Position numbers and translations under genes: made by a program
From: an uncultured Actinomycetes bacterium
Lineage (GTDB): Bacteria > Actinomycetota > Acidimicrobiia > Acidimicrobiales > Microtrichaceae
NCBI GenBank assembly: GCA_903868545.1
Contig: CAIPVR010000320.1
Coordinates: forward strand, 1-33,568
Length of the DNA: 33,568 nucleotides
Direction of reading: 5' to 3'
The notes under the pieces: generated by a model
Database searches by the model: none
What the model was told of the DNA's origin: nothing
Seen by the model: only the letters and a program-made list of their open reading frames with translations
Shown here: in pieces, positions 5,323 to 7,543 of the stretch
Layout: each line of letters starts with the position of its first letter
Numbering within the stretch: the first letter of the stretch is position 1

Positions 5323-6114
5323 TCAGTCGTCCTCGCCGTCGTGGTCCGACGAGTCCCCACCGCCGTGATCGCTCCCGCTGCCGACGGCGTCGTCGTCGCG
5401 GTCGTGGTCGTCGCGGTCGTGGTCGTCGCGCCCGTCAGCGACGCGCGGGACGGCCGGTGTGGCGGGAACGGCCGGGCGGACCCGCGGCACCGCCGGGGTG
5501 GCGGGGACGGCGGGTGTGGCCCGGGGGCGATCGACCCCGGAGCCGCCCGGGGCGCCCTCGGACTCGTCGTAGGACTCGTCGTCGGACTCGTCGTCGGACT
5601 CGTTCTCGGACTCGTTCTCGGACTCGTCCTCGGCCCCTTCGTCACTGATCTCCACCCTGAGCTGGCCGTCCTCGAACTCGGCCTGGACCTCGATCCGCCG
5701 GCCGTCCGCACCGACGAAGCTGACGTGGACCTCACCGGGCTCCTGGTCGTGCACCTCCGCCACGAAGCCGGGGAGGCCGGTGGCCGACACCAGGGACGGG
5801 ACCGCTCCGGCGGTGATCACGATCTCCCCCACCCCGGGCACGGGGATGACCTGCGTGGGTGCCGGCGTGGTGCTCGGCGCGGGCGCAACGGTCGTGGTCG
5901 TGGAGGTGGTCGACGTGCTCGACGTGGTCGACGGCGGGTCGTCCACCCCGGCGACCGCGCCGGCCACGGTCAGGCCACCGAGCAGGACGGCGGCCGTCGC
6001 CGCCGTGGCGGCGGCCCCGACGCCGAACCTGCGGACCAGGCGGGAGCCCCCGGCGACGGGGGCCACCGACGCACCGTCGGTCCCGGAATCGGCTGACTGC
6101 TGTTCGTGGTCCAC
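5323..6114 (-). CDS. Membrane-anchored protein with acidic and His/Asp-rich tail, sigma-factor cluster
   Basis: This 263-residue protein is not a recognised family. It has a cytosolic N-terminus (1-30), one membrane segment (about 31-54), a Ser/Thr/Pro linker (59-88), and a small ectodomain (about 94-158) ending in FEDGQLRVEI. An acidic run of D/E/S repeats follows (158-186), then a duplicated PAVPATPAVPRV element (199-225) and a tail rich in Asp and His (227-263) that could bind divalent metal. The ectodomain resembles the C-terminal domain of the protein at 6224-6964, so the two are probably paralogous. GTG at 6114 is chosen because the frame upstream is non-homologous and contains a promoter-like motif (6178-6206). 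That motif is shared with the sigma gene, which suggests this gene belongs to the sigma regulon. It may be a sensor or target of that system; the function is unknown. Confidence 0.68.
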   Translation of the reverse strand: MDHEQQSADSGTDGASVAPVAGGSRLVRRFGVGAAATAATAAVLLGGLTVAGAVAGVDDPPSTTSSTSTTSTTTTVAPAPSTTPAPTQVIPVPGVGEIVITAGAVPSLVSATGLPGFVAEVHDQEPGEVHVSFVGADGRRIEVQAEFEDGQLRVEISDEGAEDESENESENESDDESDDESYDESEGAPGGSGVDRPRATPAVPATPAVPRVRPAVPATPAVPRVADGRDDHDRDDHDRDDDAVGSGSDHGGGDSSDHDGEDD

Positions 6115-6177: not shown

Positions 6178-6206
6178 GACACGACGCAGGCCACACCGGG
6201 GTTTGG
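6178..6206 (-). promoter_or_regulatory. Candidate ECF-sigma promoter, site B
   Basis: Read on the minus strand: CCAAACCC, then 12 nt, then CGTCGTGTC. The same two blocks with the same spacing occur upstream of the sigma gene (7515-7543), while the intervening 12 nt differ, as expected for a two-part promoter. It lies about 65 nt upstream of the GTG start at 6114. Confidence 0.6.
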
Positions 6207-6223
6207 GTCCGGGGGGATTCTCC

Positions 6224-6964
6224 CTAGTCGACCTCGACCCGGAGCGTGCCGTCCTCGACCGAGGCCTCGGCCTTCGAGGAGTCCGAGCCCTCACCGGAGC
6301 CACCGCCGTCGCGCCGGAACCGGACCGAGACCTCGGTGGCGTCCACCGAGCGCTCCTCCTCGGACCAGCCGGGTGCCGGCGACACGGACACCAGCCGGAT
6401 CGAGTCGGGCGTCCACGCCACCGTGACCGAACCGCCGGTCGCGGTGACCACCCGGGTCCGGGTCACGGAGGTGCTCGTCGTCGTGGGCGACACCGGCCGG
6501 ACGACCGGCGGGACCGGTGCCGCAGGGGCCGGCGACGCACCTGAGGCGGCAGGGACGTCCACGGTCCCCGGTCCGGCGGGTGGGCCGCCCGGTGTGGTGG
6601 CCGGTGGGACCGTTGCCGACGGGGGCCCGGGAGCGGGAGCGGGGGCCGGGGCCGGGGGGCCGGGGGGCGTGCTGGGCGGCGGGGCGGTCGCGACCTCGGG
6701 GGACGAGGTGGTGGTCACCACGCTGGTGGGCCCACCGTCCACCACGTCGAGCTGCGACGGCGGGGTCCCGGTGACGATCACGGTGGCGCCGATGCCGAGC
6801 ACCACGACGGCCAGGGACGACAGGGCGGCCAGACCGGCGCGGCGACGACGCCTGGCCGCGGCGTACCGGTGCCGCAGCCCCCCGAGGGCCGCTTCGGCGG
6901 GCTCGACGGGACCGCCGGGCCGGAAGCCGCGGAGGGCCTCGCGGACGAGTTCGTCGTCGTTCAC
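6224..6964 (-). CDS. Anti-sigma-like membrane protein with proline-rich stalk
   Basis: 246 residues: a short charged cytosolic domain (1-42) beginning MNDDELVREALRGF, a membrane segment (about 43-65), a long Pro/Ala/Thr-rich stalk (68-165) and a C-terminal ectodomain (about 171-246) ending VEDGTLRVEVD. Its GTG start overlaps the sigma-factor stop by four bases (GTGA, 6961-6964), the usual arrangement for a sigma factor and its membrane anti-sigma partner. The cytosolic part is only about 40 residues and lacks a clear zinc-binding H-x3-C-x2-C motif, so anti-sigma activity is inferred from position rather than domain. The ectodomain shares the pattern LVS..., EV.V.F..., EDG.LRVE(V/I) with the product of 5323-6114. 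Confidence 0.72.
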   Translation of the reverse strand: MNDDELVREALRGFRPGGPVEPAEAALGGLRHRYAAARRRRRAGLAALSSLAVVVLGIGATVIVTGTPPSQLDVVDGGPTSVVTTTSSPEVATAPPPSTPPGPPAPAPAPAPGPPSATVPPATTPGGPPAGPGTVDVPAASGASPAPAAPVPPVVRPVSPTTTSTSVTRTRVVTATGGSVTVAWTPDSIRLVSVSPAPGWSEEERSVDATEVSVRFRRDGGGSGEGSDSSKAEASVEDGTLRVEVD

Positions 6965-7509
6965 GACCCTGGACCCTCCACGTCCAGCACGTCGCGGAGG
7001 CGGAGTCGTGCCTGGTGCAGGTGGTACTTCACCGCGCCCTCACTGAGGCCCATCGAATCGGCCACTGCGGTCACCGGGAGGTCATCCAGGTAGTGCAGCG
7101 CGACGACGGCGCGCTGCTGGGCACTGAGGCCACGGACGGCGGCGGCGACGGCGGGATCGAGCCCGTGCCCGTGGTCGACCCGGGAGGCGTCGACCATGGC
7201 GCGCGAGGCCAGCCGCTCGACCGCGCGCCGGCCACGGACACTTCGACGACCCACGTCGGTGGCCCGGTTGAGCGCCACGCGACGTACCCAGCCGAGCGGA
7301 TCGTCCAGTCCGGAGACCCGCCGCCACCGCACGTAGGCCCGCTCGAACGCGTCGGCCACGCACTCGGCCGCCACCTCGGCGTCGCCACAGACGAAGGACA
7401 CCGTGCGCACCAGGCGTGGGTAGCCCTCGAGGAAGAGGGCGTCGAAGTCGTCACCGGTGCTCCTCACCGTGTCCTCACCGGTCGAGCCCGGCGGTTCGGG
7501 GTCATCCAC
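6961..7509 (-). CDS. ECF / SigE-family RNA polymerase sigma factor
   Basis: A 182-residue two-domain sigma-70 factor. Region 2 (about 22-88) includes YPRLVRTVSFVCGD and a DPLGWVRRVALNRATD segment; region 4 (about 117-172) includes LSAQQRAVVALHYLDDLP and the helix-turn-helix LSEGAVKYHLHQAR. There is no sigma-1.1 or region 3, as expected for an ECF. It directs core polymerase to a small regulon, probably in response to an envelope signal passed through the overlapping membrane protein. A two-part motif ends five bases before the GTG start, compatible with an autoregulated, leaderless transcript. An internal GTG (residue 16) would be the fallback start if transcription began further downstream. 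Confidence 0.88.
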   Translation of the reverse strand: MDDPEPPGSTGEDTVRSTGDDFDALFLEGYPRLVRTVSFVCGDAEVAAECVADAFERAYVRWRRVSGLDDPLGWVRRVALNRATDVGRRSVRGRRAVERLASRAMVDASRVDHGHGLDPAVAAAVRGLSAQQRAVVALHYLDDLPVTAVADSMGLSEGAVKYHLHQARLRLRDVLDVEGPGS

Positions 7510-7514
7510 CCCGT

Positions 7515-7543
7515 GACACGACGGAACGGCCCGTCGGGTTTGG
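7515..7543 (-). promoter_or_regulatory. Candidate autoregulatory ECF-sigma promoter, site A
   Basis: On the minus strand CCAAACCC (7543-7536), 12 nt, CGTCGTGTC (7523-7515). CGTC is a common ECF -10 core. It is identical in both blocks and spacing to site B at 6178-6206. The predicted transcription start falls at or just before the GTG at 7509. Confidence 0.62.

Follow-up and report, generated by a model that had tools for sequence, protein, structure and literature searches.

A conserved two-block motif as the probable promoter of an ECF sigma factor operon and of a distal envelope-protein gene in the Acidimicrobiales

Introduction

The window analyzed here is the whole of a 33,568-nucleotide stretch of DNA (contig CAIPVR010000320.1 of assembly GCA_903868545.1) from an uncultured Acidimicrobiales bacterium of the Microtrichaceae. 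On its minus strand lie, in order, a Mrp/ApbC gene (8707-7565), a promoter-like site (promoter 1), a gene for an ECF sigma factor (7509-6961), a membrane-protein gene (gene 2; 6964-6224), a second such site (promoter 2), and gene 3 (6114-5323). The locus raises the question of which factor reads the two sites and what that factor would control. The motif is very probably a promoter read by the product of the ECF sigma gene at 6961-7509, which gene 2 would hold, and which a signal would free to transcribe its own operon and gene 3.

Two copies of a motif in one window

A paired motif with the same blocks and spacing had been described in the first-pass annotation, and CCAAACCC-N12-CGTCGTGTC does occur as exact copies on the minus strand at 7515-7543 and 6178-6206, with identical blocks and N12 spacing. 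Both copies are intergenic: the first follows the stop codon of Mrp/ApbC (7565) and precedes the start of sigma (7509), and the second falls in the gap from the end of gene 2 (6224) to the start codon of gene 3 (6114). The window has a GC content of 73.6%, and about 7 self-matches of the 8-N12-9 form are expected in it (order-2 Markov mean, 6.8 pairs per window). Such a match is therefore commonplace, and the repeat within the window would alone be weak evidence. The two upstream regions match at 17/17 positions, the best among 988 random pairs of equal-size segments being 15/17.

When the whole genome was scanned with one or two mismatches allowed, as had been proposed at first pass, the full two-block pattern was found twice exactly, not at all at 1 mismatch, and twice at 2 mismatches, with background reached at 3; the source genome is a 97%-complete assembly of 3.69 Mb in 335 contigs, in which targets with a looser motif could be missed. 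A wider regulon in this genome was considered and rejected, as the only additional one-mismatch match to the refined motif described below (C65:13446) lies just past a gene end without a clear downstream gene.

Refined motif and promoter anatomy

The part of the motif that is conserved among relatives is CCAAACCY-N15-CGTGTC (also written CCAAACC-N16-CGTGTC), and the triplet that opens the second block (CGT in the window) reads CGT, CAT, GGA, CGG, CGA, TGG, ATG, or CTG in them. Since this triplet varies freely between genera, the true -10 element is taken to be CGTGTC, three bases downstream. The first-pass reading of the first CGTC as the -10 core was thus abandoned as unconserved; a -10 element in the second block is retained, displaced to CGTGTC, which restores normal ECF spacing. 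Both blocks hold ~1.9 bits of information per column, against 0.5-0.7 for the N12 spacer and 0.34 for the flank upstream. The conservation of the blocks against a drifting spacer and flanks is seen separately in the set of sigma promoters and in the set of distal promoters.

ECF promoters characteristically have an AAC at -35 and a CGT at -10 (PMC8103513), and at the sequence level the CCAAACC-N16-CGTGTC before the sigma gene has both, as an autoregulated ECF promoter does. No sigma-70-type promoter was predicted in the region. The Mycobacterium tuberculosis PsigL scaffold, CGTGTCAG, has a -10 that begins CGTGTC (PMC6372665), and by our own count from this scaffold the start lies ~7 nt past the last C of CGTGTC. 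Promoter 1, assigned to the sigma/gene-2 operon (7515-7543, minus strand), comprises a -35 element, CCAAACCC, at 7543-7536 and the -10 element CGTGTC at 7520-7515; it is an exact match, and the orthologous loci that were read all retain it ahead of sigma. Promoter 2, assigned to gene 3 (6178-6206, minus strand), has the same -35 element at 6206-6199 and CGTGTC at 6183-6178, and this second exact copy is also conserved in relatives. In several relatives a short A+T patch (e.g., GAATTC, GATTTT, AGAATTT) lies 10-20 nt upstream of the -35, and is perhaps an UP-like element.

According to the spacing in the M. tuberculosis sigma-L structure (PMC6372665) and the start codons in relatives, transcription of sigma is predicted to begin at 7505-7511 (minus strand), at most 2-3 nt from the GTG start codon (7509). 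The sigma genes that were read have an in-frame start codon 4-16 nt beyond the -10, a GTG at +6 (the window) or +7 (G132 and G257) and an ATG at +10 or +11 in most others. This distance implies a leaderless or nearly leaderless message, and the sigma mRNA is probably leaderless. Gene 3, unlike sigma, has a leader of ~57 nt and a ribosome site. The ATG with which the relatives start, 10-11 nt past the -10, is present in the window at 7505, where it is out of frame; the in-frame start there is the GTG at 7509, which points to a shifted start or a small indel.

Conservation and exclusivity within the family

Orthologues of the sigma factor are present in 12 of the 32 other genomes of the family (60-71% identity, E <= 2e-49), and all 12 are preceded by CCAAACCY-N15-CGTGTC or a close variant. 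The exact refined motif has 21 matches in the 33 family genomes, all at the sigma locus and spread over 12 genomes, two of them in the source genome; a reversed-motif control has none in the same 33. Two exact sites are found in nine genomes and one in three, namely G007 and G009, whose contigs end early, and G029, in which one copy has a one-base change (CGTGAC). The two copies are 1274-1524 bp apart in the family, and the second always lies before the gene-3 position. Every intact, fully sequenced family locus carries the motif before both sigma and the distal gene, a pattern in keeping with the self-contained regulon of at least three genes that had been suggested from the window. With the strict motif, this regulon in the source genome would consist of two transcription units and three genes (the ECF sigma gene, gene 2, and gene 3).

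The exact motif is present in 12/13 genomes with a sigma orthologue and in 0/20 without one (Fisher p 4e-8). This co-occurrence, together with the position before sigma, bears out at the level of sequence the earlier proposal that the motif is the sigma factor's own promoter. Scattering of the motif through coding regions at background frequency, which the first-pass annotation had named as contrary to its reading, was tested for and not seen. Chance in a high-GC window, to which the ~7 expected self-pairs lend some color, is a practically negligible explanation, refuted by the conservation and exclusivity of the motif across genomes.

In one genome, G027 (C1:145700-151800), the locus is decaying, with a degraded promoter 1, an interrupted gene 2, the loss of both gene 3 and promoter 2, and changes at conserved residues of the sigma factor. 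Two records titled as a Bifidobacterium breve MAG (CAMDLX010000058.1 and CAMDAT010000116.1) carry an Acidimicrobiia-type locus, and their organism labels look wrong.

Distribution in other families and orders

When 397 genomes from the order were scanned, the matches listed included 25 exact copies of the refined motif (11 in the own family, 8 in a second family, f7, and 6 elsewhere), with ~15 matches for the reversed-motif control. The exact single matches in other families were set aside, as at least three lie inside coding sequence read as rplP and the rest are background-like when measured against that control. In the f7 genomes G132, G257, and G357, a sigma factor 46-49% identical to that of the window has the motif directly before it. 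Unlinked copies of the motif in f7 precede gene-3-like proteins (in G357 and, at 1 mismatch, in G132). One copy (G257:C4) precedes a protein with the beta domain discussed below, another (G357:C88) a DUF11 protein (Pfam 3.1e-18), and a third (G132:C33) a small secreted protein. A motif-blind search with the gene-2 domain profile refound G257:C4 and yielded a new protein, G132:C5, before whose gene a site was found afterwards at 1 mismatch. G341, also of f7, has sigma and domain proteins and no such site. In G357, contigs C81 and C88 carry a near-duplicate promoter and gene start of the secreted DUF11 protein, and the C81 copy is shortened by a frame change or the contig end.

A class-level profile search, likewise made without the motif, found sigma/domain loci in G495, G463, G552, and G423, which belong to other orders. 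In each of them CCAAACC-N16-CGTGT stands ahead of sigma and recurs 1258-1362 bp further downstream, where the second copy precedes a secreted Asp/Thr-rich protein. In the homologues of G055, G088, and G361, the spacer from YYAAACCY to CGTGT is longer by one base.

The sigma factor as reader of both sites

The sigma factor (6961-7509, minus strand) has 182 aa and matches Pfam Sigma70_r4_2 (1.4e-13) and Sigma70_r2 (2e-5). Regions 2 and 4 are the only ones present, with no Pfam match to region 1 or 3, the domain content of ECF (group IV) sigma factors. It falls outside SigE-fam_strep (TIGR02983), scoring 2.5e-33 and 115.3 bits against a curated cutoff of 141.55.

That this sigma factor reads the motif is argued by the persistence of the sites before sigma and before secreted genes in homologues as distant as 46-49% identity, and by the joint decay of promoter, gene 2, and gene 3 in G027. 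Such a pair of blocks, standing before two co-regulated units, might also be the operator of a DNA-binding regulator of both. However, the blocks form neither an inverted nor a direct repeat and fit the ECF -35/-10 consensus and spacing, a start codon sits at the expected transcription start, and the motif tracks the sigma gene across genomes and is gone without it, which makes an operator very improbable. The sites could also be ECF promoters read by another ECF sigma factor of the cell, as ECF promoters look alike and the source genome has 20 first-look sigma-like candidates. This is unlikely, given that family genomes with other ECF candidates and no orthologue have no exact site, and that the site keeps its place immediately ahead of this sigma gene in homologues of as little as ~46% identity and in several orders. 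Reading by the adjoining sigma factor is the account followed below.

Gene 2 as a probable anti-sigma factor

Gene 2 (6224-6964, minus strand) is an open reading frame with a 4-nt overlap between its start and the end of the sigma gene, and encodes a single-pass membrane protein of 246 aa. Its layout is a cytoplasmic N-terminus of ~44 aa, a transmembrane helix, a Pro/Thr linker, and a C-terminal seven-strand domain. This extracytoplasmic all-beta domain (~75 aa; 6227-6463, minus strand) is modeled by AlphaFold with pLDDT ~96 over its seven strands, and its profile is found in relatives. The protein matches no Pfam or NCBIfam family and no anti-sigma family. From its position and architecture, it is probably the anti-sigma factor of the adjoining ECF sigma. 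A class I anti-sigma domain (ASDI), which is cytoplasmic, helical, longer than ~50 aa, and often contains Hx3Cx2C, was not found, there being ~44 residues before the transmembrane helix, no Cys, and no Pfam match. Lacking Cys, the cytoplasmic part has no zinc-binding Hx3Cx2C motif. Class II (CnrY-like) anti-sigma factors wrap sigma with a short (<50 aa), two-helix cytoplasmic segment (PMC7406223). The gene-2 N-terminus is within this length range, and AlphaFold predicts helices at residues 3-12 and 23-44, with low confidence.

Gene 3 and a shared outer domain

Gene 3 (5323-6114, minus strand; GTG start, ribosome site AGGGGG) encodes a membrane-anchored or secreted protein of 263 aa, rich in Thr, Ser, Asp, and His. 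In the source genome and the genus g15 it consists of an N-terminal hydrophobic helix, a beta domain, and an acidic tail of low complexity; in other genomes most copies have this tail alone. Proteins similar to gene 3 lie behind the second site in relatives, and those of G004, G006, and G032 contain one to three repeats of DDDGTPDQGRGD, which resembles an acidic, possibly calcium-binding repeat. No intrinsic terminator was found after gene 3.

The gene-3 copy of the beta domain (5635-5856, minus strand; pLDDT 91) is 43% identical (3e-14) to an unlinked protein of G257, which also matches gene 2 (5e-9) and thus bridges the two domains. The domain profiles of genes 2 and 3 align in hhalign (P 6.6e-6), and the strand order is alike in the two models. 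When the gene-2 and gene-3 proteins were compared directly by BLASTP, little emerged except low-complexity matches, and the homology came to light through the intermediate protein and the profiles. Profiles and models together support an all-beta outer domain of ~70-75 aa shared by the two proteins. It has no match in Pfam and no confident match in a fold search of the PDB (best E 0.011 and 0.29). In G488, G532, G422, and G483, paired copies of the domain are found in secreted or membrane proteins that flank an OmpR-type response regulator and/or a histidine kinase, with no sigma homologue near these loci. The domain seems to accompany envelope signaling systems of two kinds.

What the sharing signifies is a separate matter from the promoter assignment, which may be right while the domain is a common envelope module of no regulatory meaning and gene 3 a stress-induced surface protein. 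This account has close to an even chance. The domain is widespread in the class, including in secreted proteins beside sigma-less two-component systems, gene 3 is without it in several genomes, and in genus g15 gene 3 has it and gene 2 does not; yet the source genome, G132, and G257 carry it both in the membrane regulator and in a motif-bearing secreted protein. With one domain in both sensor and target, the sensing of a shared ligand, of the kind known for RsgI/SigI (PMC4711584), or homotypic feedback is a possibility. This idea loses weight in genomes in which either gene 2 or gene 3 is without the domain. In its full form, the domain would let the anti-sigma factor and the gene-3 protein bind a common ligand or one another, gene 2 would gauge how much surface material gene 3 makes or in what state it is, and sigma would adjust gene 3, in a closed homeostasis loop across the class, a proposal that we consider doubtful.

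A proposed mechanism

From the computed motif, its conservation, exclusivity, and co-occurrence with sigma, the architecture, and the domain homology, we infer that sigma binds the two sites, that gene 2 restrains it, and that a signal relieves this restraint. Gene 2 would sequester sigma at the membrane via a short cytoplasmic tail, one helix, and an outer beta domain, and an envelope signal acting on this domain would release it. The freed sigma would fire exactly two promoters in the source genome, that of its own operon and that of gene 3. Its own promoter would yield a leaderless sigma mRNA together with gene 2, i.e., positive autoregulation with a built-in brake. The output through gene 3 would be a secreted or surface protein with the same outer domain as gene 2.

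Relation to known systems and significance

An autoregulated ECF sigma factor with a membrane anti-sigma factor is a well-known kind of system, of which this case is ordinary in class and very cleanly defined. The targets of Streptomyces BldN are chaplins and rodlins. BldN and RsbN, a membrane-anchored ASDIII anti-sigma factor, resemble the present system in pairing an ECF sigma with a membrane anti-sigma and in having surface-protein targets, but the targets here are Asp/Thr/His-rich proteins or carry the beta domain. Autoregulated ECF pairs in general (PMC8103513) share the two-domain sigma, the co-transcribed downstream membrane protein, the AAC/CGT own promoter, and a small dedicated regulon; here, in contrast, the regulon comprises only two promoters and the sigma start is predicted to be leaderless. 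M. tuberculosis SigL, autoregulated from PsigL with its CGTGTC (PMC6372665), is the closest solved relative in the PDB by sequence (3.5e-7), but is a distant homologue only, has other targets, and differs in that the cytoplasmic part of gene 2 lacks Cys and Hx3Cx2C. In Clostridium thermocellum, RsgI carries a CBM, and the CBM3-bearing CipA is under SigI3 (PMC4711584). That system is alike in its working, with an autoregulated sigma, a membrane anti-sigma, and an outer module type that recurs in regulated extracellular proteins, whereas the sigma type and outer domain here are unrelated and no carbohydrate module was found. With a sigma of ECF regions 2/4 and an outer domain that lacks a Pfam or confident PDB match, the locus falls outside biomass sensing of the SigI/RsgI type.

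A literature search found no description of the sigma family, the exact motif, the two-promoter regulon, or the shared outer domain, although a full ECF classification may already list the promoter. A mostly uncultured, experimentally naive lineage thereby gains a fully specified ECF switch, comprising a sigma factor, a probable anti-sigma factor, an exact promoter, and a complete strict-motif regulon, readable across the class. Because the motif is exclusive, with two sites per genome and none elsewhere, sigma and its promoter are clean candidates for use as an orthogonal pair. The shared outer domain turns the signal into a testable question.
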